Position numbers and translations under genes: made by a program. A DNA stretch of 64,000 nt, from NCBI RefSeq assembly GCF_039539965.1, contig NZ_BAABED010000001.1, positions 4,588,001 to 4,652,000 on the forward strand. Direction: 5' to 3'. The notes below the pieces were generated by a model. That model was given only the letters and a program-made list of their open reading frames with translations. It was not told the DNA's origin and ran no database searches. This stretch comes from Arthrobacter methylotrophus. GTDB taxonomy: Bacteria > Actinomycetota > Actinomycetes > Actinomycetales > Micrococcaceae. Below are positions 20,123-35,832 of the stretch, one piece after another. The stretch's first letter is position 1; each line of letters starts with the position of its first letter.

Positions 20123-20947
20123 ATGACCGATGCAGCAGTAGCCGGGGCGCCGCGGACACGCGCTCCTCAGGCGAGTGACCAGTACGTGCAATCACTGGCC
20201 CGTGGCTTGTCCGTGATCCGCGCGTTCGACGCAGCCCACCCCGTCATGACGCTCAGTGAGGTGGCGGCGCGTACCAACCTGACCCGCGCCACCGCCCGCC
20301 GGTTCCTGCACACCCTCGTGGAGCTGGGTTATGTCCGCACGGACGGTAAAACCTTCGCCCTGACGGCGATGGTGCTGCAGCTCGGCTACTCCTACTTGTC
20401 GGCATTGTCCCTGCCCCAGCTCGCGCAGCCGCACCTTGAAGACCTCTCACTGAACCTGGGGGAGTCCACGTCGGCCGCGGTGCTCGATGGCATGGACATC
20501 TTCTACGTAGCCCGGGTGACAACGCGCCGCATCATGACGGTCGGCATCTCGGTGGGCACCCGCTTCCCGGCCTACGCGACGTCCATGGGGCGCGTGCTTC
20601 TGGCGAATCTTCCGCCGCAGAAACTGGACGAATACCTGTCTGCGGTGGAGTTCAAAGCCCTGACGCCACGCACCATCACGGCCCGTGAAGAACTCGTGGC
20701 CGAGCTGAACCGCGTGCGCAAGCAGGGCTGGTGCCTGCTGGACCAGGAGCTGGAAATCGGACTCATGTCGATCGCCGCGCCCGTCTGGAACCACAATGCG
20801 GGCCATGTGGCTGCCGCGGTCAATGTCTCGCTTCAGGCCCAAAATGTCGCCGCGCAGCCGAACCCGGAGGCCTACCTCGAATCGGTCAGGGAGCAGATCG
20901 TGGAAACTGCCAGGGCGATATCGCGGGACGTCTCGGCAAAGCACTAG
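20123..20947 (+). CDS. pcaR: IclR-family regulator PcaR-like
   Basis: A 274-residue IclR-family activator/repressor with an N-terminal winged helix (LARGLSVIRAFDAAHPVMTLSEVAAR then TRATARRFLHTLVELGYV) and the effector domain (RFPAYATSMGRVLLA, GWCLLDQELEIGLMSIAAPV). PcaR, PcaU and PobR share this architecture. Placement directly after pcaFIJ supports control of the protocatechuate genes by an intermediate such as 3-oxoadipate. The ATG at 20123 is used; no strong ribosome site is visible and the longer frame runs into the palindrome. Confidence 0.88.
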   Translation: MTDAAVAGAPRTRAPQASDQYVQSLARGLSVIRAFDAAHPVMTLSEVAARTNLTRATARRFLHTLVELGYVRTDGKTFALTAMVLQLGYSYLSALSLPQLAQPHLEDLSLNLGESTSAAVLDGMDIFYVARVTTRRIMTVGISVGTRFPAYATSMGRVLLANLPPQKLDEYLSAVEFKALTPRTITAREELVAELNRVRKQGWCLLDQELEIGLMSIAAPVWNHNAGHVAAAVNVSLQAQNVAAQPNPEAYLESVREQIVETARAISRDVSAKH

Positions 20948-25922: not shown

Positions 25923-27368
25923 TTAGGCCTTGGTGACTGCCACTTTGGAAACAGGCTCCGCTCCGGCTGATGAGGCAGAGGCGCCCGGGGCTGGTGCCGC
26001 CGGCGAGTAGCTTACGGCTGTGTCGAGGCCCAACCTGCGGCGGTCGCGCTGCTGGTTGACGAACATCAGGGCCAGGATGCCGAAGGTCAGCATGAGGCCC
26101 CCCGCGAGGGCGAAGGCCGCACGGTATCCGTCACCAGGGGTGGCAGCGCCGCCGATCAGGAAACCCGAGACTGCCGGTGCGAACACGCCGCCGGTGGTGA
26201 GGACCGCGTTGGCGATCGAGAGGTTGGCGCCGCGCTGGCCAATGGTGGTCAGTTCTGCCACCACCAGGTATGTGATGGCGAAGAGCGCAGGGGCGGTGCC
26301 GAAGCCGAAGACCATGAGGGCGATGGACAGGACTGGGGAGGTGGTCATGGTTGCCCCCACCAAGCAGGCGCCGGCGAAGGTTCCGGAGGCGCCGAGTACC
26401 CAGCCGCGGGCCTTCCGCGTGGGAACGCCTTTCAGGTGCAGGCGCTGGGTCAGTGCGCTCAGGCCGACGGTGGCGATGGTGCCCCAGGCGGCGGGCAGGG
26501 CGATCATGGTGCCGGACTGCTGCCCGCTGAAGCCCAGGACGTTCTGGAAGTACGCCGGCCCCCAGGACATGGCCAGGGTGAAGGTCCAGTAGCCGAAGAA
26601 GGAGGCCAGCACTGCGAAGATCCAGCTGGGGGAGAGGATGGTGCGCCAGTAGCGGACCTTGGTCTCCGCCACCACAGGAGCTTCTTCCGGCGCGATGCCG
26701 TCGATGTCCTGCTCTGCCTTCCGGCTGGTGTAGGGGCCTTCCTTGCCCACGATGAACCAGAAGACGGTCCAGACCAGCCCCACGACGGCGAGCACGGCGA
26801 AGGCGGTCTGCCAACCGAACTGCCCGATCACCCAGGCCAGGACCGGGGCGAACGCCACGATGCCCAGCGTCACGCCGGAGGACGCCAGTGCCGCCGGGGT
26901 GGCGCCCTTCTTCTCCGGGAACCACTTGTAAATGCCGTGCATCAGCACCGGCGCCAGCGGGCCTTCGCCGGCGCCCAGTAGGAGGCGGCTGGCCCAGAGG
27001 GCGGGCAGCGACGCGAACAGCAGGATGGGTGCCTGCGCCAGGGACCACAGCAGGCACAGGACCAAGAGGATCCACTTGCTGGAGATCTTGTTGGCGATGG
27101 GTGCGGCCACGATCTGGGCCACGCCGAAGGTCAGGAACATGGCACTGCCGACCAAGCCGAACTGCTCCGGCGTGATGCCTAGCTCTTTCATCAGCGGCAC
27201 GGCGGCGATGCCCAGCACTGCCTTGTCCGCCCAGCTGAGCATCATCAGGAAGAGCAGGGTGAAGGTGATGATCCAGCCGTAGCGGTTGCGTTTGGCATGG
27301 GGCCAGTTTCGGGGATTGCGGGAGTTCGCGGAGCCGGTGGCCACGTCCGGAAGGGGAGTTGCAGACAC
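25923..27368 (-). CDS. MFS transporter, anion:cation symporter (ACS) type
   Basis: About 481 residues with 12 helices; TLLFLMMLSWADKAVLGIAA and RLLLGAGEGPLAPVLMHGIYKWFP are typical of ACS-family permeases (aromatic or hexuronic acid uptake). The start is uncertain: GTG at 27368 gives the expected short N-terminus, while the open frame runs back into the next MFS gene. A motif shared with two other promoters of the cluster lies 93 bp upstream (27461-27476), so it is probably co-regulated with the P450 genes. A 4-methoxybenzoate-like acid is a guess at the substrate. Confidence 0.82.
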   Translation of the reverse strand: MSATPLPDVATGSANSRNPRNWPHAKRNRYGWIITFTLLFLMMLSWADKAVLGIAAVPLMKELGITPEQFGLVGSAMFLTFGVAQIVAAPIANKISSKWILLVLCLLWSLAQAPILLFASLPALWASRLLLGAGEGPLAPVLMHGIYKWFPEKKGATPAALASSGVTLGIVAFAPVLAWVIGQFGWQTAFAVLAVVGLVWTVFWFIVGKEGPYTSRKAEQDIDGIAPEEAPVVAETKVRYWRTILSPSWIFAVLASFFGYWTFTLAMSWGPAYFQNVLGFSGQQSGTMIALPAAWGTIATVGLSALTQRLHLKGVPTRKARGWVLGASGTFAGACLVGATMTTSPVLSIALMVFGFGTAPALFAITYLVVAELTTIGQRGANLSIANAVLTTGGVFAPAVSGFLIGGAATPGDGYRAAFALAGGLMLTFGILALMFVNQQRDRRRLGLDTAVSYSPAAPAPGASASSAGAEPVSKVAVTKA

Positions 27369-27460
27369 AGTATGCCCAATCGTTGAAGTGGGAGCCTTTG
27401 CTGGATTGCAGCGGCGTTTCCTTGACTCTAGGCTCGTGTGATCGGTCTTACATTTGAGTA

Positions 27461-27476
27461 TTCCGTTGGATGGAAA
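27461..27476. promoter_or_regulatory. Shared operator-like site 1 (MFS promoter)
   Basis: TTCCGTTGGATGGAAA, an imperfect palindrome with TTCC/GGAA ends, upstream of the ACS-type MFS gene. It matches the sites at 31170-31188 and 33069-33087 at nearly every base. A likely target of the cluster's IclR regulator. Confidence 0.7.
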
Positions 27477-27480
27477 CCGT

Positions 27481-28731
27481 TTATCCGACTGCAGTCTCCT
27501 GGCGTTGCCGCTGGTCGGGTTTGCCAAGGAAGGCCAGCAGAACCATCCCTAGAGCACTGAGCCCGCAGGTCAGCCACCAGGTGGTGCCCCAACCCCCGGT
27601 TCTGGTGGCGAGGAGGGCAAACAGCATGGGACCCAAGAAATTTCCCACGTTGAAGATTTGCTGTGTGAGCCCCAGAACGGCCGTGACTGACCCGTCCGCG
27701 GGTGCCATGTGCACCGAGTAGCTGGTCACGGCGGCAGGAATGAGGCCACCGACGGCGGAAAACACGGCTATGAGGGCCCACTGGACAAGGACGCCGTTTG
27801 CCGTGCTTTCCCAGCTGACGGCGAAGGTGCCCACGGAGGCAGCGGACATCGTCAGGAAGGTCCAGAAGATAATCCTCCTCTCGGAGACTCCTCGTTGGAT
27901 GAGGGGTCCTGCGCTGAGCGCTCCTATCGCGTTGATACCGCCCACGATGGCGCTGAGGATGCCGGGCCACGGCCCGCCGAGCCCGGCTGACCGGTAGATG
28001 GACGGCAGGAATCCGAGTACGGCCATCCACTGCGCCGTGTAGCAGGCGAAGACCACTCCGATGATCCAAGGGCCGCGGGTGGCGACCGTGCGGCCCACCC
28101 GGCGGAGCGCGGACCGGAACCTGGCGTCGGCCGCTAGCACGTCCCTGGGTATCCGGCGTAGCAGCAGCGGCACGGGGAGCAGCGTGACCATGGCCATCAC
28201 CAGCCACCACTGGCGCCACCCGGCGGCCTGGAGGAACAGCGCACCCGCTGACAGGCCAATCATCGTGGCCACACCCTGAAACGTGGCCCACGATGCCAGC
28301 GCGACGTGCAGCCGTCGGGGGGCCGACACTTTGCGGATCAGGGCAGGAGCGGGAACGACGACCAGCAGGAAACCAACGCCCTCCAGGGTGCGTGCCGCCA
28401 TCAGCAGTGTGGTGCTGGGGGCTGCCGCGCCGAGCACTGAGGCGATGCTGAGCAGGACCAGTCCTGCGAGAAGGAGGCGGCGGAGACCTACGATCTCCCC
28501 GCCCACGGCCGTGACCACGCCGCCCACCACGCTGGCCAGTTGGATCATGCCCAGCAGCAGTCCTGCCTGGACCAGCGTGATGCCCAGATCCGTTTGAATG
28601 CTGGCCAGCGCGGCTGGCAGCTTCCAGATATGCATCGCTGCCGCGATTCCCGCGGCGAGGACGGCGAGCCAGGCCCCGTCCCCGGCCGTTCTTTGGTCAT
28701 CAGGTGCTGTGATTGGCGACGGGAATGCCAA
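27481..28731 (-). CDS. MFS transporter (CynX/NimT-like)
   Basis: A 416-residue, 12-helix facilitator. AAMHIWKLPAALASIQTDLGITLVQAG and the ARTLEGVGFLLVVVPAP segment resemble the CynX/NimT group. The TTG at 28731 has AGGAG 5 nt upstream. It is the last gene of a minus-strand run aldehyde dehydrogenase - metallo-hydrolase - MFS with gaps of 29 and 33 bp. The substrate is unknown; import or efflux of an aromatic compound would suit the neighbours. Confidence 0.8.
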   Translation of the reverse strand: MAFPSPITAPDDQRTAGDGAWLAVLAAGIAAAMHIWKLPAALASIQTDLGITLVQAGLLLGMIQLASVVGGVVTAVGGEIVGLRRLLLAGLVLLSIASVLGAAAPSTTLLMAARTLEGVGFLLVVVPAPALIRKVSAPRRLHVALASWATFQGVATMIGLSAGALFLQAAGWRQWWLVMAMVTLLPVPLLLRRIPRDVLAADARFRSALRRVGRTVATRGPWIIGVVFACYTAQWMAVLGFLPSIYRSAGLGGPWPGILSAIVGGINAIGALSAGPLIQRGVSERRIIFWTFLTMSAASVGTFAVSWESTANGVLVQWALIAVFSAVGGLIPAAVTSYSVHMAPADGSVTAVLGLTQQIFNVGNFLGPMLFALLATRTGGWGTTWWLTCGLSALGMVLLAFLGKPDQRQRQETAVG

Positions 28732-28764
28732 GAGCTCTCCTTGCTGGAGCGTGAGCGGAATTCC

Positions 28765-29691
28765 TTAGGCGGGAGCGAGGGCGGGACTGCCCATACGGAA
28801 GCGCTGGCCACTGACGGCTACATCCACAAGCCCGTCAAAAGTTGAGGCGGCACGGCTGCGCCACCACTGTGGCTCGGCCCGGCCCGCCAGGTGGGAAAGC
28901 ACCAGGCGCCCCACCCCGGCGGCCGCGGCCACGCGGCCGGCACCCTCCGGGGTGGTGTGCGCGATCCGTTGGTGGTTCAGGAACTCCGGCGCGAAACCTT
29001 TACCCGCATAGAAATCGAGGTTCACCGCTTCATGGACCAGGACGTCGGCGCCCCGGGCGAGAACTGCCATGGCATCGCATTCGGCGGTGTCGCCGGAAAA
29101 CACCACCGATCCGGCGTCGGTATCGAAGCGGAACGCCAGCGCGGGGCGGACGGGCGGGTGCTCCACGAGGATGCCGGTGACCTTGACGCGGTCATCCTCG
29201 TAGACGTAGAAGGGGCGTCCTGCCTCCGGTGTCCCCACCGGGGGCGTGGTGAGGTCCACGGTGTGCACGAGGGAGGCCAGAGGTGGTCGTGCTTCATCGT
29301 GGACGCGGATGTCGATGTCGTAGGAGAAGGCCTCCAGCGAGTGGGAGACCAGCTCGCTGGTGCCGGAGAGCCCCGCGCCACCGGAGCGGGTAGCGTCCTT
29401 GCCCGGTCCCACCACGGAGACCGGGCCGGTGAAGCCCTCCACCGGGTTGCCCCAATTCCACAGCAGGAAGCCGGGCAGCTCCACCACATGGTCCGAGTGC
29501 AAGTGGGTGACGAAGCCGGCCACGAAGTCCTTGCCCCGAAGGCCTGCCTCATGGGCGGCGCGGGAGCAGCCGAGGCCGAAGTCCACCATGTAGAAGACAT
29601 CGCCCACCACCAGTGCGCTGGAGATGCCGTTTTCCGGTCCGCGGATAGCCGGCCCGGCGGCGGTGCCAAGAGTGATCAGTTCGACGCTCAC
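28765..29691 (-). CDS. Metallo-beta-lactamase-fold hydrolase (RNase Z / arylsulfatase-like subgroup)
   Basis: A 308-residue protein with the metal motif THLHSDHV (about residues 62-69), a later FSGDTAECD and a C-terminal LVLSHLAG histidine, so a two-zinc MBL site is complete. The start resembles RNase Z-like hydrolases (ITLGTAAGPA). The GTG at 29691 has GAAGGA 7 nt upstream; a longer frame lacks a ribosome site. In this catabolic context it may hydrolyse an ester or lactone, but the reaction cannot be named. Confidence 0.82.
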   Translation of the reverse strand: MSVELITLGTAAGPAIRGPENGISSALVVGDVFYMVDFGLGCSRAAHEAGLRGKDFVAGFVTHLHSDHVVELPGFLLWNWGNPVEGFTGPVSVVGPGKDATRSGGAGLSGTSELVSHSLEAFSYDIDIRVHDEARPPLASLVHTVDLTTPPVGTPEAGRPFYVYEDDRVKVTGILVEHPPVRPALAFRFDTDAGSVVFSGDTAECDAMAVLARGADVLVHEAVNLDFYAGKGFAPEFLNHQRIAHTTPEGAGRVAAAAGVGRLVLSHLAGRAEPQWWRSRAASTFDGLVDVAVSGQRFRMGSPALAPA

Positions 29692-29720
29692 AGGAAAGTC
29701 CTTCTGCAGAGTTGGCGGGG

Positions 29721-31100
29721 TCAGGAGTGGGGGCGGGCGTTGATGACGCGGGTTTCCAGGTATTCCTCCAGTCCCCAGCGGCCGCGCTCGCGGCCGACGC
29801 CCGATGCCTTCCATCCGCCGAACGGGGCGTCCGGTTCCACCAGGGTGTGCTGGTTTACCCAGACTGTTCCGGCCTCAAGGCGAGAGGCGGTTGCGTGGGC
29901 GCGCTCCAGGTCGGGGCTCCACACGGATGCACCCAAGCCGAATTCCCCGGCGTTCAGCCCGGCGATGGTCTCATCGAGGTGGTCGTAGGCAACAATGGGC
30001 AGCGCCGCGCCGAACTGTTCCTGTTCCACTAGGTCCATGCCCGGTTCGGCGTCGATCACCACAGTGGGGGAGAGGAAGTAGCCTGGCAGGTCGCAGCCCG
30101 GGGTGCCGCCGGTGATAATGCGGGCTCCGGCACCTACAGCGGAGTCAACCAGGCTGTGGACCAGCTTGAGCTGGGATTCGTTGTGCATGGGGCCCATGGT
30201 GGTGCCGTGCGCGATGCCGTGGCCCAGCACATGGCGGGATGCTTCGGCGGCGATGGCCTCGGCCAGCTCCGTGCTGCGGCAACGCGGGACATACACGCGC
30301 TTGACCGCCATGCACACCTGGCCGGCGTTGCGGAAGGCGCTCCCCACGATCCCGCGGGCGGTGACGGCGATGTCCGCGTCGTCCAGCACGATGGCAGGAT
30401 CGTTGCCGCCAAGCTCCATGGTGACGCGCTTGACCGTGGACGCGGCCTGCTGTGCGATGGAGATACCCACCTCCGTTGAGCCGGTGAAGGAGATCTTGCG
30501 GATGCCCGGGGAGATGCTCAGCGCGACGTTCACTGTCCGCCGCGAACTGGTCCGGGCCTGCAGCACGCCGGCGGGGAGGACCTCGTTGAGCAGGTTGACC
30601 AGCGCGAGGGTGGACAACGGCGTGGAGGGGGAGGGCTTGGCGATCACGGTGCAGCCGGCCAGCAGGGCAGGGGCGAGTTTCACGCAGAGCAGGGAGATGG
30701 GAAAGTTCCACGGCGTGATGGTGCCAACAATGCCCACCGGCCGGTACTGGACTTCAAGGGTACGGTCGGCGCGGGGTTTCAGCTGTTCGGTTTCGTCCCA
30801 GACCAGGTCCGCGTAGTACTCAAAGAGTCCTGCGGCCACCGTGAACTCACCGGCGGCGTCGGCCTTGGGCTTGCCCTGTTCCCGGGAGAGCAGGGTGGCC
30901 AGCGCGTCCAGGTCGCGACGGATCAGTGCCGCGCCTGCACGCATGGCGTTGCGGCGCGTTTCCCGGTCCGCGGCCCAGTCGGCCGATGCTGCTTGGGCTG
31001 CCGCAACCGCGGCCGCAACGTCCTCTGCTGTGTTTTCCGGAGCGTGTCCGATGAGCTCAAAGGTGGCCGGGTCGAGGACCTCGTACTGGGCTGCCGTCAT
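29721..31100 (-). CDS. NAD(P)-dependent aldehyde dehydrogenase
   Basis: A 459-residue ALDH with TITPWNFPIS, FTGSTEVG, general base Glu in MELGGND (about 230) and catalytic Cys in NAGQVC (about 261). The ATG at 31100 has AAGGAC upstream. Its promoter region is shared with the divergent SDR gene and carries one of three common operator-like sites. A role in oxidising an aromatic aldehyde such as anisaldehyde to the acid, next to an alcohol dehydrogenase and an O-demethylating P450, is inferred from context. Confidence 0.88.
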   Translation of the reverse strand: MTAAQYEVLDPATFELIGHAPENTAEDVAAAVAAAQAASADWAADRETRRNAMRAGAALIRRDLDALATLLSREQGKPKADAAGEFTVAAGLFEYYADLVWDETEQLKPRADRTLEVQYRPVGIVGTITPWNFPISLLCVKLAPALLAGCTVIAKPSPSTPLSTLALVNLLNEVLPAGVLQARTSSRRTVNVALSISPGIRKISFTGSTEVGISIAQQAASTVKRVTMELGGNDPAIVLDDADIAVTARGIVGSAFRNAGQVCMAVKRVYVPRCRSTELAEAIAAEASRHVLGHGIAHGTTMGPMHNESQLKLVHSLVDSAVGAGARIITGGTPGCDLPGYFLSPTVVIDAEPGMDLVEQEQFGAALPIVAYDHLDETIAGLNAGEFGLGASVWSPDLERAHATASRLEAGTVWVNQHTLVEPDAPFGGWKASGVGRERGRWGLEEYLETRVINARPHS

Positions 31101-31169
31101 GGTTTGTCCTTTCGGCCGGGAGGGAATTCCTATCCCAGTGTCATAGCACCGGTCACATCCGTGGGCACT

Positions 31170-31188
31170 CTTTCCATCCAACGGAAAG
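31170..31188. promoter_or_regulatory. Shared operator-like site 2 (ALDH/SDR divergent promoter)
   Basis: CTTTCCATCCAACGGAAAG lies between the divergent ALDH and SDR genes, 70 bp from each start. Its reverse complement, CTTTCCGTTGGATGGAAAG, equals the site at 33069-33087 except for one base. Confidence 0.75.
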
Positions 31189-31258
31189 TGCGCTGCCAGA
31201 GCACGCGCTAGCTTGCCACTATGGAGTGAAGCACGTCACGCACTAACGAGGAGCCTGC

Positions 31259-32059
31259 ATGTCCCAAGAGCAACTGCCCATCGTACTTACCGGGGTCTCC
31301 TCGGGCATCGGGGCCCGGACGGCCCGGATCCTCGCCGGCCGCGGCGTCCCGCTGATCGGCATTGACCGCAACGCGCCCACCGGGTTCAGCGGCACGTTTG
31401 TCCAGGCGGACCTTTCGAGCCAGGCCGGCATTGACACCGCCGCGGCTGCAGTCAAGGCTGCAGCGCCGAACGGCATCGCGGGACTGGCGAACATTGCCGG
31501 GGTCCCCGGCACCGCACCGTGGCGGACGGTGCTGTCCGTCAACGTCTTCGGCGTCCGCGGGCTGGTCCGGGCGCTGGCACCCTTGCTTGGCGAGGGGTCT
31601 GCCGTGGTGAACCTCGCCTCCAGCGTCGCCGTGAACTGGCGGGAGGTCAAGGCAAAGTGCTCCGCTTTCGCGCTTGCCGGCGATCAGGCTGCCGCCCTGG
31701 AGGCAGTTGCGGGCGATGACGAGGTCACGGCTGAGTCCTACCTCTTCTCGAAGCAGTGCGTCCGGCTCCTCACCGAGCACCTGGCCGCCGAACTCTTGCC
31801 GCGGCAGATCCGCGTCAACAGTGTCAGCCCGGGACCCGTGGCCACCCCCATCCTCGAGGACTTCAAAAAAGACCACGGCCGGGACAAGGTGGAGGGCGCC
31901 GGTGCCCTGCTGGGCCGCTTCGGCGAGCCGGACGACATCGCGCCCGTCATCGACTTCCTGCTCCGCCCCGAATCGGGCTGGGTAAACGGTTCGGATATTC
32001 GCGTGGATGGCGGCCTGGGTGCGCACCGCGGCTCCGGCCTCGCCGCTGTGGCCGGCTGA
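31259..32059 (+). CDS. Short-chain dehydrogenase similar to coniferyl-alcohol dehydrogenase
   Basis: A 266-residue SDR with cofactor motif TGVSSGIG, the NIAGVPGT segment, and an active-site Tyr and Lys in SYLFSKQC. The order FVQADLS, GIDxxxxxV, NIAGVPGTA and SPGPVATPILEDF closely follows my recollection of CalA-type coniferyl-alcohol dehydrogenases and 3-alpha-hydroxysteroid dehydrogenases. Oxidation of an aromatic alcohol to the aldehyde used by the divergent ALDH is a reasonable inference. The ATG at 31259 follows ACGAGGAG. Confidence 0.85.
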   Translation: MSQEQLPIVLTGVSSGIGARTARILAGRGVPLIGIDRNAPTGFSGTFVQADLSSQAGIDTAAAAVKAAAPNGIAGLANIAGVPGTAPWRTVLSVNVFGVRGLVRALAPLLGEGSAVVNLASSVAVNWREVKAKCSAFALAGDQAAALEAVAGDDEVTAESYLFSKQCVRLLTEHLAAELLPRQIRVNSVSPGPVATPILEDFKKDHGRDKVEGAGALLGRFGEPDDIAPVIDFLLRPESGWVNGSDIRVDGGLGAHRGSGLAAVAG

Positions 32060-32202
32060 ACGCCTTCGTCCCACGGCGGATGCACTAATGTACGACGCCG
32101 GCGCCTCGCCTTTCGCGCCAGGGGGCACCGGCGTCGGGCCTTAAAATGGCTGGAGAGCGCTCCGCCACATGCAACGCTCCCCAGCACTCAGAAGGGTGAC
32201 TC

Positions 32203-33039
32203 ATGGCAAACGCCGCCCCGACGGGCCGTACCACCCGGACGGTTACGGCGGCCGCGCCGAAGCGTCCGTCCGGCGACGGCGGTGCTGCCGACCACCAGGC
32301 GACCAGTGTCACGTCACGCGCCCTGGCGTTGCTGGGCACCTTCGATACCGAGCACTCGGTCCAAAGCCTCAGCTCAATGGCCCGGCGTGCAGGGCTGCCA
32401 GTGGCCACAGCTCACCGCCTTGCCGGTGAGCTGGTGTCGTGGGGTGGCCTGGAGAAGGTGAACGGCGAGTACCGTGTGGGTCAGCGGATCTGGCGCCTTG
32501 GCCTGCTGGCTCCCGCGCAGCAGAACATCGCCGAAGTGGCGGCTCCGTTTATGCAGGATGTCCTTTTCGTCACCCATAACGTGGTGAATCTGTTCATCCT
32601 GGATGGGGAGGAGGTCCTGCTGGTGGAACGGATGTCCGGCACTGGAGCGGGTCAGCCGTTCCGGCGGGTGGGCGCGCGGCTGCCGTTGCACGCCAGCGCT
32701 GCGGGCAAGATCATGCTGGCCTATGGGGCCAAGGAGCTGTTTTCCGCGGCTGCGCAGCGGTTGGAGCCGCATACGTCCCGCACCATCACCAGTCCCTCGG
32801 TGCTGGCCGCCGAGATTGAACGGGTCCGGACCAATAGTTACGCCACCACAGAGGAGGAGGCGGGGCCTGACAACTACGGCCTGGCCGTCCCGGTGTTTTT
32901 GCCGAACAAGCAGGTGGTTGCCGCCCTGGGCATCGTCACCCGCGGCCGTCCCGCACCGGTGGGCAGCGTGGTTCCGGTGCTCAACATCGCCTCGCGGGGA
33001 ATCGCCCGGCGGCTGGGTGTGGAGCACCTGCCGCAGTAG
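32203..33039 (+). CDS. IclR-family regulator of the methoxy-aromatic cluster
   Basis: A 278-residue IclR-type protein with a low-complexity N-terminal extension (about 35 residues), the winged helix (SRALALLGTFDTEHSVQSLSSMAR, LPVATAHRLAGELVSWG) and the effector domain (RLPLHASAAGKIMLAYG, SYATTEEEAGPDNYGLAVPV). The ATG has AAGGGTGA upstream. It stands between the SDR and the reductase/P450 genes and is the natural candidate to bind the three matching sites in the cluster. No such site is visible in front of its own gene. Confidence 0.87.
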   Translation: MANAAPTGRTTRTVTAAAPKRPSGDGGAADHQATSVTSRALALLGTFDTEHSVQSLSSMARRAGLPVATAHRLAGELVSWGGLEKVNGEYRVGQRIWRLGLLAPAQQNIAEVAAPFMQDVLFVTHNVVNLFILDGEEVLLVERMSGTGAGQPFRRVGARLPLHASAAGKIMLAYGAKELFSAAAQRLEPHTSRTITSPSVLAAEIERVRTNSYATTEEEAGPDNYGLAVPVFLPNKQVVAALGIVTRGRPAPVGSVVPVLNIASRGIARRLGVEHLPQ

Positions 33040-33068
33040 TTCGTTCTTTCCGCCTGCGACAGGCCAGT

Positions 33069-33087
33069 CTTTCCGTTGGGTGGAAAG
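33069..33087. promoter_or_regulatory. Shared operator-like site 3 (reductase/P450 promoter)
   Basis: CTTTCCGTTGGGTGGAAAG, 116 bp before the reductase start. It is the most symmetric of three near-identical sites in the cluster. Confidence 0.75.
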
Positions 33088-33202
33088 CTGTGCCTTGCCT
33101 GTGTCGTGGAACACCTAACCTCAAGTGAGCCGTTAAAGCGGCCGGATCTCCGGCCGAAGCCTGCTTTGCAGGCGAGCCGTTCCAAAGGAAGTGAATACCC
33201 TC

Positions 33203-34168
33203 ATGACTGCACCTGCAGGAGCCACCATCGACGCCGTCGTCGACCAGGTGGACGTTGTGGCGGACCAAGTGGTCTCCCTGGTACTGCGGCGCGTGGACGG
33301 CCAGCCGTTCCAGCCCTGGCAGCCCGGCGCACACATAGATGTCCATGTGGGCGACGGCCTGGTTCGCCAGTACTCCCTGTGTTCCTCGCCGGATGAGCTG
33401 GACCACCTGCGGATTGGCGTGCTGCACGTGCCGGATTCCCGCGGTGGATCAAAGGCGGTGCACGCGCTGCTGGCCGGCACACCGCTGACCATCTCCGAAC
33501 CGCGCAACAACTTCCCGCTGCGCGAGTCGCGGCGTTACCTCTTCATCGGGGGCGGAATCGGCATCACCCCGCTCATTCCGATGCTGGAGGCGGCCCAGGC
33601 TGCCGGCAAGGAATGGACCCTTATCTATGGCGGCCGGAGCCGGAACACAATGGCATTCGCGCAGCAGCTGGAGGACCAGTACGGCCCCGACCGGATCCGG
33701 ATCATAGCCGAAGACGAGGTAGGCCGGCTGGATCTGGACCAGATCCTCGGCATGCCCCGGGCACACATGCTGGTGTACGCGTGCGGCCCCGGCGGGCTGC
33801 TTGGCGCGGTGGAGGAACGCTGCATGGGTTGGCCTCCGGGCACCCTGCACACCGAGCGTTTCGTTGCCTCCACACTGGGCGCAGCGGCGGCCAACGCGCC
33901 GTTTGAGGTGGAGCTGGCCCGGACCGGGGCCACCGTGACCGTGCCGAATGACAAGACCATCCTTGAAGCCGTGGAAGAGGTGGGCGTCCGCGTCCTGTCC
34001 TCCTGCCGCGGCGGATTGTGCGGCACCTGCGAAACCCAGATCATTTCGGGTGAGCCGGAGCACCGGGATGCCGTCCTCACCCAGGAGGACCGTGACGCCG
34101 GCGAAATCATGCTGGTCTGCGTCTCGCGTGCAGCCGCCGGCTGTCCGCGCCTCGTCCTGGACCTCTAG
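33203..34168 (+). CDS. PDR/VanB-type 2Fe-2S flavin reductase (P450 partner)
   Basis: A 321-residue phthalate-dioxygenase-reductase type electron carrier: FMN-binding domain (VRQYSLCSSPDE), NAD(P)H domain (YLFIGGGIGITPLIPML, CGPGGLL) and a C-terminal plant-type ferredoxin with Cys at about 267, 272, 275 and 305 (SCRGGLCGTC ... LVCVSRA). It would pass electrons from NADH to the P450 encoded 45 bp downstream. I prefer the ATG at 33203, 11 nt after AAAGGAAG, over the GTG at 33191. Class-III-like PDR partners are less usual for bacterial P450s than separate ferredoxin and reductase. Confidence 0.88.
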   Translation: MTAPAGATIDAVVDQVDVVADQVVSLVLRRVDGQPFQPWQPGAHIDVHVGDGLVRQYSLCSSPDELDHLRIGVLHVPDSRGGSKAVHALLAGTPLTISEPRNNFPLRESRRYLFIGGGIGITPLIPMLEAAQAAGKEWTLIYGGRSRNTMAFAQQLEDQYGPDRIRIIAEDEVGRLDLDQILGMPRAHMLVYACGPGGLLGAVEERCMGWPPGTLHTERFVASTLGAAAANAPFEVELARTGATVTVPNDKTILEAVEEVGVRVLSSCRGGLCGTCETQIISGEPEHRDAVLTQEDRDAGEIMLVCVSRAAAGCPRLVLDL

Positions 34169-34213
34169 CCACTTCACTTACCCCGCCAAGTTTCGTCCCC
34201 AGGAGTGTTTCCC

Positions 34214-35413
34214 ATGACCGTTATCACCCATGACGCCAACGTGTTAGGCGAGGATCCGTTCGACACCGTCAACCTTCTGGACCCGTACCCGTTCCTGGGG
34301 CGGCTCCGCGATGCCGGCGCCGTCTCCTATCTGGAGAGCACCGGCAGCTATGCCGTGGCGGGGTATCAGGAGGTCTATGAGGTCTTGACGGACTTCGAAA
34401 CCTACATCTCCTCCGGTGGCCTGGGCCCGCGGGATATCCGGAAGGATTCGGGCTGGCGTCCGCCCAGCATCCTGGAATCGGATCCTCCCATCCACACCGT
34501 GATGCGCCGCGCTTTGACCGGCGTCATTAACCCCGGCACGGTCCGTGCCTTGCGGGAGCCGTTCACGCCGCCCGCCGTGGAGTTGACGGAGCAGCTGGCC
34601 CGACGCGAGCGGTTCGACGCCATCACGGACCTCGCCGAAAAGTACCCCCTGCGTGTCTTCCCGGACGCAGTGGGGATTCCCGACGTTGGCCGTGAACACC
34701 TGCTGCCGTACGGCAACATGGTGTTCAACGCGTTCGGCCCGGAGAACTACATCTTCAAGCAGGCTTTCGCCGAGGGCGATGAGCACGCTGCCGCGGTAAT
34801 GCGGAACTGCCAGCGCGAAAACCTGGACGACGTCGGCTTTGGCGCCCAGATCTGGAAGCGCGTGGAGGACGGGCTGATCACCGAGCAGCAGGCCACGCTG
34901 CTGGTCCGTGCCCTGCTGTCCGCCGGAGTGGACACCACCATCTTCGGGATCGGCAATACGCTCTCGGTGCTGGCGCGCTACCCGGAAGCCTGGGCCCAGC
35001 TGCGGGAGAACCCCAAGATGGCGAAATTTGCCGTGGATGAGGCGCTGCGCCTGGAATCGCCGTTCCAAAAGTTCCACCGGACCGTTGCCGTGGACACCGT
35101 CCTCGGCGGCGTGCACCTGCCTGCCGGCGCCAAGGTCATGGTGTTCCTAGGGGCCGCGAACCGTGACCCGCGCAAGTGGGGTGAGAACGCCGATGACTTC
35201 GATCTCAACCGCAATGCGTCCGGCCACGTCGCGTTCGGCATGGGCCTGCACCAGTGTGTGGGGCAGCCGATCGCCCGGCTCGAAATGGAAATCGTGCTGC
35301 AGCAACTGCTCCAGCGGGTAGCCACCATCGAACCAGACGGCGCTCCGGTGCCGATTCTGCACAACGTGCTCCGCGGGTTCGAGTCCCTGCCGGTGCGGAT
35401 CACGGCGGCTTAG
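34214..35413 (+). CDS. Cytochrome P450, CYP199-like (4-methoxybenzoate O-demethylase type)
   Basis: A 399-residue soluble P450 with the I-helix SAGVDTT (about 236), ExxR in DEALRLESP, and the heme loop FGMGLHQCVG (Cys about 348). Several stretches match my recollection of Rhodopseudomonas CYP199A enzymes: WRPPSILESDPP, AITDLAEKYPLRVFPDA, GREHLLPYGNMVFNAFGP, LGAANRDPRKW and LRGFESLPV. CYP199A enzymes remove the methyl group of 4-methoxybenzoate. AGGAG lies 9 nt before the ATG. With the upstream reductase it forms a two-gene oxygenase unit. Family placement is confident; substrate is inference. Confidence 0.9.
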   Translation: MTVITHDANVLGEDPFDTVNLLDPYPFLGRLRDAGAVSYLESTGSYAVAGYQEVYEVLTDFETYISSGGLGPRDIRKDSGWRPPSILESDPPIHTVMRRALTGVINPGTVRALREPFTPPAVELTEQLARRERFDAITDLAEKYPLRVFPDAVGIPDVGREHLLPYGNMVFNAFGPENYIFKQAFAEGDEHAAAVMRNCQRENLDDVGFGAQIWKRVEDGLITEQQATLLVRALLSAGVDTTIFGIGNTLSVLARYPEAWAQLRENPKMAKFAVDEALRLESPFQKFHRTVAVDTVLGGVHLPAGAKVMVFLGAANRDPRKWGENADDFDLNRNASGHVAFGMGLHQCVGQPIARLEMEIVLQQLLQRVATIEPDGAPVPILHNVLRGFESLPVRITAA

Positions 35414-35832
35414 GTCTTTGAAATTTGCTCGCTGGGACTTGAAGGTACTCATCTCATGCTGATCGAATAAGTGCTCCTAGCTGGCCCAGTCCACGTCCAC
35501 TACAGAAAGGAGAGGCGGGCTGGGTCTTCTGAATCAGCTGACAGTATGACCACTAATAAGCTCGTGGACGCCGGGTCAGGCATCTGGTGTCAGCTCGAAT
35601 CCGGGTTCCGTGGCGCGCCAAATCAGGTACGCCAGATCTCACGCAGTGGCCTCCCTCGGAAGAGTGCGGAGAACCGTCAGGGAGGCCCGAGGACCGCTCC
35701 TCTCACCGGGGCCGTGCTGCTGACCGGCGGAAACGCCGATTTCTTCAGGAACGGGAGTTCTCGCAGCTACTTCCAACCCCGTGCTTTTGACGCCGATAAT
35801 GGACGCGTCGTCAGCCTGAGCTGGGGGATCGG
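35414..35832. other. Gene-free stretch
   Basis: No convincing gene in 419 bp. Several open frames exist but have no ribosome site, no family motif and no consistent codon pattern. The far end abuts the decayed RelE gene, so this may be eroded sequence; a short enoyl-CoA-hydratase-like string is too weak to call. Confidence 0.4.

Follow-up and report, generated by a model that had tools for sequence, protein, structure and literature searches.

Three near-identical sites in one gene cluster

The 64-kb stretch of the Arthrobacter methylotrophus genome analysed here (the window, on whose whole length all feature sites are numbered) carries a cluster of eight genes: two major facilitator superfamily transporters (MFS1 and MFS2), a metallo-beta-lactamase (MBL)-fold hydrolase, an aldehyde dehydrogenase (ALDH), a short-chain dehydrogenase (SDR), an IclR-family regulator, a P450 reductase and a CYP199-type cytochrome P450 (Table 1). 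The IclR protein, which belongs to its family by both domains, is the only regulator among them. Three predicted operators in the cluster share the form TTTCC-N7-GGAAA with at most one change over 17 bp, namely ATTCCGTTGGATGGAAA at 27460-27476, past the MFS2 stop and ahead of the MFS1 start, TTTCCATCCAACGGAAA at 31171-31187 and TTTCCGTTGGGTGGAAA at 33070-33086. Compared with TTTCCATCCAACGGAAA on either strand, sites 1, 2 and 3 have one, zero and one mismatches and the next best places in the window have five; the window holds these three 17-mers within one mismatch, as against none in any of 200 dinucleotide-preserving shuffles of it. The outer ends are weaker at site 1 (TATTCC...GGAAAC), and the full 19-bp CTTTCC...GGAAAG is confined to sites 2 and 3. 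The bare TTCC-N7-GGAA skeleton was found four times in the window (shuffle mean 0.98, maximum 6), and since the skeleton alone is only mildly enriched, it is the longer form that carries the signal. An initial annotation of this DNA had described a near-identical motif at three promoters, placing it before an MFS gene, in the ALDH/SDR gap and before the reductase/P450 pair; both the motif and these positions hold, but its wording taken as a strict 21-mer (CTTTCCNATCCAACGGNAAAG) gives no match because it is two bases too long.

Table 1. Genes, predicted operators and inferred -10 hexamers of the cluster.
Feature	Position	Strand	Remarks
MFS1 transporter	25923..27371	-	MFS_1; D-galactonate-transporter subfamily below cut-off; likely GTG start near 27368
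Inferred -10 TAGAGT of MFS1	27425..27430	-	28 nt from operator 1
Operator 1 (predicted)	27459..27477	-	upstream of MFS1, weak outer bases; orthologous place conserved
MFS2 transporter	27481..28731	-	MFS_1
MBL-fold hydrolase	28765..29694	-	Lactamase_B_2
ALDH	29721..31100	-	Aldedh 472.9 bits
Inferred -10 GACACT of ALDH	31137..31142	-	27 nt from operator 2
Operator 2 (predicted)	31170..31188	+	sole site in the divergent ALDH/SDR gap
Inferred -10 CACTAT of SDR	31217..31222	+	28 nt from operator 2
SDR, coniferyl-alcohol-dehydrogenase-like	31259..32059	+	NF009092 220.2 bits, below cut-off 242
IclR-family regulator, proposed binder	32203..33039	+	IclR_C 109.8 bits (cut-off 24), HTH_IclR 37.6 bits (Pfam cut-off 22)
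Operator 3 (predicted)	33069..33087	+	between IclR stop and reductase start
Inferred -10 TAACCT of reductase/P450 operon	33116..33121	+	28 nt from operator 3
P450 reductase, NAD-binding + C-terminal 2Fe-2S	33203..34168	+	Fer2, NAD_binding_1
CYP199-type P450	34214..35413	+	best PDB matches 9g9q (PbdA), 2fr7, 4dnz (CYP199A4), E 1e-113 to 1e-115

Distribution, conservation and promoter spacing

Across the whole genome, TTTCCRYYSRRYGGAAA occurs without mismatch at two places, sites 2 and 3, and allowing one mismatch adds site 1 and C1:1422215. The latter is situated within open frames, one of which we assume to resemble a phosphate transporter, and it was dropped as a regulon member. At two mismatches there are 26 places in total against 5 for the reversed control (the 22 further places were followed up where they adjoin an IclR paralogue), and the skeleton TTCC-N7-GGAA occurs 175 times against 90 for its reversed control. 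In the genus, CTTTCCRYYNRRYGGAAAG is present in 16 of 206 genomes, and these are exactly the 16 with an orthologue of the cluster IclR (at least 86% at E <= 1e-90); it is absent from the other 190, all of which lack the orthologue. All 39 listed genus places lie within 6 kb of the IclR gene, and no genus genome has an exact copy elsewhere. The reversed control pattern gave two matches in the window's genome and one in genome G084. The P450, at 95% identity or more, is found in the same 16 genomes, and a further 22 with only a 45-56% CYP199-like P450 have neither motif nor orthologue. Genome G084, although labelled as the same species, has neither of the two, and the cluster is therefore accessory; another CYP199-like P450 (55%) is present there (G084:C1:2833931-2835115). 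At the level of the family, the exact motif occurs in 15 of 395 genomes, all of which belong to the 43 that match the IclR protein at E <= 1e-60, and in most loci read diverged sites were seen even though exact copies are often absent. A phylum-wide search for the IclR protein at E <= 1e-50 gave one positive in 396, the genome of the window itself; a separate search had found one relative (L116, 55%) in a Propionibacteriaceae metagenome-assembled genome (MAG).

We compared 39 cluster loci, stretches having been taken for 20 of the 43 IclR-positive family genomes. Not counted are L118 (28%), L116, in whose stretch no reductase or P450 was found, and L196 and L198, which duplicate L110 and L113. 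When three mismatches are allowed, 38 of the 39 loci have sites that face cluster genes, before SDR in 33, ALDH in 34 (these two totals, like the SDR and ALDH spacing counts given below, include the three-mismatch matches L108:8899 and L124:8869, likely due to chance), the reductase in 30, MFS1 in 23, MFS2 in 8, IclR in 4 and the MBL-fold gene in 2. At up to two mismatches there were 162 strand hits in 707 kb, none of them within cluster genes; column-shuffled controls gave no hits in seven cases out of eight and two hits in one. The site columns are better conserved than the 20 nt upstream of them (0.93 against 0.61 at SDR, 0.95 against 0.54 at the reductase, 0.89 against 0.57 at MFS1). In other genera the genes stand in a different order, yet most loci still have one site ahead of the reductase and another in the gap that separates ALDH from SDR; where an MFS gene stands between IclR and the reductase (L112, L113, L114 and L197), the site precedes that MFS gene. 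Near relatives vary in detail, with a one-base insertion at MFS1 in L123 and one GGAA change at the reductase site in L110 and L126. In the Micrococcus MAG L117, diverged sites precede MFS1, occupy the ALDH/SDR gap and adjoin IclR; the last (L117:9944-9962) separates IclR from a divergent transporter-like frame, which suggests autoregulation in that MAG, not in the window.

The small regulon that the initial annotation had linked to the IclR gene is supported by these comparisons, as motif and gene co-occur in the genus and sites face the cluster genes in nearly all loci; the random scatter, or lack of conservation at orthologous genes, that would have spoken against it was not found.

Downstream of the sites the spacing is fixed. 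An A-N3-T hexamer lies 27-29 nt from the site edge at 33 of 35 SDR, 33 of 36 ALDH, 29 of 32 reductase, 25 of 25 MFS1 and 8 of 10 MFS2 sites. The stricter TA-N3-T is found at this distance at 29/32 reductase and 25/25 MFS1 sites, against 0/27 and 0/23, respectively, in the opposite, gene-free direction. No consensus -35 accompanies these hexamers: at four promoters the best match scores 2.5-2.9 of 6 on average and differs by no more than 0.2 from shuffled linkers, and a sigma-70 consensus scan of 27000-35700 returned no promoter against 0.6 expected. Taking the hexamer as the -10 would put the operator centre near -50. The sequences themselves show the sites, how they are conserved, that they are linked to the IclR gene and how they are spaced, and fixed geometry of this kind without a consensus -35 points to activation.

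The cluster regulator as candidate activator

From these observations we infer binding by IclR, activation, ligand and substrate, and consider it likely that IclR is a ligand-responsive activator which acts through the three operators on a p-methoxybenzyl alcohol/aldehyde/acid pathway. In the proposed mechanism, IclR would bind each operator in the presence of a methoxy-aromatic acid, or of its product 4-hydroxybenzoate, as the inducing condition, and once bound would probably aid RNA polymerase at promoters that have a conserved -10. The single central operator would serve both divergent promoters, those of ALDH and SDR, and the regulon would comprise four units (MFS1; ALDH-MBL-MFS2; SDR; reductase-P450). 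Its products would take up the substrate, oxidise p-methoxybenzyl alcohol and aldehyde to p-methoxybenzoate and O-demethylate the latter to 4-hydroxybenzoate by means of the P450.

SDR and ALDH together suggest alcohol and aldehyde oxidation, and the cluster of this soil bacterium probably degrades a plant-derived methoxy-aromatic acid; its earlier description as a methoxy-aromatic cluster finds support in a P450 whose nearest solved structures are PbdA and the CYP199A4 group. Contacts placed by reading the alignment include a WRPPS motif with the carboxylate-binding Arg and Ser, present in the window P450 and in 35 of 37 cluster P450s (the L055 row, another P450, was left out). The place of PbdA Ser237 is Ala in the window P450 (LLVRALLSAG), which thus lacks the second Ser expected of CYP199A, and Ala stands there in 36 of the 37, L194 not matching the LLVRALLSAG string. 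The MBL-fold, RNase-Z-like hydrolase is retained in most clusters read, although no proposed pathway step obviously needs it. Elsewhere in the window, the frames before pcaR presumably resemble beta-ketoadipate genes. PbdA and CYP199A4 O-demethylate p-methoxybenzoate, and the S237A variant of PbdA is reported to act on p-methoxybenzaldehyde as well (PMC11530827); therefore the substrate range of the window P450 may differ, and its Ala might widen it to aldehydes.

Several points weigh against an activating IclR. The -10 hexamers were chosen after the alignments had been seen, and A-N3-T also occurs at 27-29 nt in 3/27 (reductase) and 5/23 (MFS1) opposite-direction controls. Conservation at MFS1 extends into the linker (0.79), where TGTAAG forms a block at the position of a -35; this promoter may thus have a weak -35. 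The window scan found no such site directly upstream of IclR; 28 of the 43 IclR-positive family genomes contain no exact copy of the motif, L181 has no site at all, and in L186 and L190 the ALDH/SDR gap lacks one. Orthologous loci are related and hence not independent. As the motif occurs only at the cluster, co-occurrence alone cannot separate IclR from another shared factor. Finally, an operator centred near -50 could also repress.

This last point leads to the alternative that survives best, though we judge it unlikely: IclR would bind the sites as a repressor and be released by its ligand. Lying at about -60 to -41, the operator would indeed reach into the upstream part of the RNA polymerase footprint, but a simple repressor needs neither a site-to-(-10) distance kept at 27-29 nt across otherwise unlike linkers nor -35 matches about equal to those of shuffled linkers.

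Much less probable is binding by a regulator encoded elsewhere, such as PcaR (20129-20947) or a PobR-like paralogue, instead of the cluster IclR. In its favour, similar sites adjoin the PobR-like paralogue (C1:4659392) and a third paralogue (C1:4091909); these read CTTCC...GGAAK, unlike TTTCC...GGAAA at an outer base. Against it stand, too, the position of IclR as sole cluster regulator and the absence of the motif from the 190 genus genomes without it. Some covariation of regulator and site may be seen as well. Six orthologues with the helix-turn-helix (HTH) motif TC[HY]R (47-53% identity) have a CCAG or CGAG core in 9/9 sites, and the other 32 loci (HTH TAHR; TTHR in L187) have it in 0/89 sites, with CAAC or CAAT in 76/89; L116, whose HTH is also TCHR, has the site TTCCACTGAATGGAA, or TCAGT on the other strand. 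Two things count against this covariation, however: it is essentially one clade-level change, and the paralogue L055, outside the orthologues, breaks it, since its HTH reads TAHR and its site CCAGC. A chance resemblance or a repeat element can hardly account for the three sites: the TTCC-N7-GGAA skeleton by itself is common, but the shuffles, the 38 of 39 conserved loci and the lack of exact off-cluster copies in the 206 genus genomes all speak against it.

The paralogous loci are of interest in themselves. About 8 kb to the right of the window (L069, G000:C1:4659392-4660163), a PobR-like IclR gene is followed by CTTCCGTTGAACGGAAT and then by a frame that we take to be pobA-like; CACACT lies 28 nt past CTTCCGTTGAACGGAAT, in the same geometry as at the window sites. 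At L055 (G000:C1:4091787-4092634), an IclR paralogue (37%) is followed by ACTTCCGTCCAGCGGAAGC, with CACACT about 29 nt past it, and by a different P450 frame. Such a site is no general companion of IclR genes, as these two were the only ones of 22 other PF01614 genes of the genome with a group-1-form (see below) TTCC-N7-GGAA site within 1.5 kb.

It is tempting, though the balance lies slightly against it, to read here a family-wide grammar in which PobR-like IclR activators would use their own TTCC-N7-GGAA variants, with the operator about 28 nt from the -10 and the -35 given up. Sister regulators would then run successive steps (methoxybenzoate demethylation, then PobA), and one operator could drive two divergent promoters. 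The activator model puts forward a candidate regulator, with its operators and promoters, for an O-demethylation pathway of the CYP199 type, which is of interest in connection with lignin-derived aromatics. It would also provide sensor promoters for methoxy-aromatic acids and offer a clean comparative test of RNA polymerase placement by IclR activators.

Comparison with known systems

Among regulators of the PcaR/PcaU/PobR type, TIGR02431 (pcaR_pcaU) is the best NCBIfam match of the window IclR, but at 127.8 bits against a cut-off of 284.75 the protein falls outside this subfamily; PcaR passes with 312.1 bits. Beside the PobR-like paralogue of the same genome, 28 nt separate a related site from CACACT ahead of the pobA-like frame. 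The nearest solved relative, 5h1a (E 5e-26), is too distant for a ligand to be named from it. In Table 1 of PMC8222616, the sites of PobR and PcaU read differently from those of the window.

The closest likeness is to GenR of Corynebacterium glutamicum (3-hydroxybenzoate/gentisate), also an IclR-family regulator of aromatic catabolism, whose site is given in that table as ATTCC-N7(5)-GGAAT, with the same TTCC-N7-GGAA half-sites and spacing; a title cited in the same paper has GenR both activating and repressing gen genes. In contrast to GenR, the window sites are mostly TTTCC/GGAAA, matching ATTCC-N7-GGAAT in nine of ten bases at site 1 and eight at sites 2 and 3, and the pathway genes differ. 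All three sites fit the group-1 subgroup WTT-11-AAW, WTTYCRYW3RYGRAAW (Suvorova and Gelfand 2021, PMC8222616), at all 14 positions outside the central W3. Unlike W3, their central triplet is CCA or TGG, not all A/T, and most orthologues have an extra outer C...G. The initial annotation's claim that no IclR site of such sequence had been described therefore fails, since this subgroup and the GenR site cover the motif form.

On the enzyme side, the window P450 resembles PbdA of PbdAB in Rhodococcus jostii RHA1 (a CYP199A O-demethylase with its reductase; PMC11530827) in its WRPPS motif and paired reductase, and differs from it in the Ala at the third contact place, Ser237. The words regulator and IclR are absent from the main text of that paper. 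We did not recognise the regulon among the papers listed by searches of one open-access library; the supplementary tables of PMC8222616, outside that search, may predict it. The motif form is thus already known, and the regulon is a new, well-supported instance of an established type of gene regulation.

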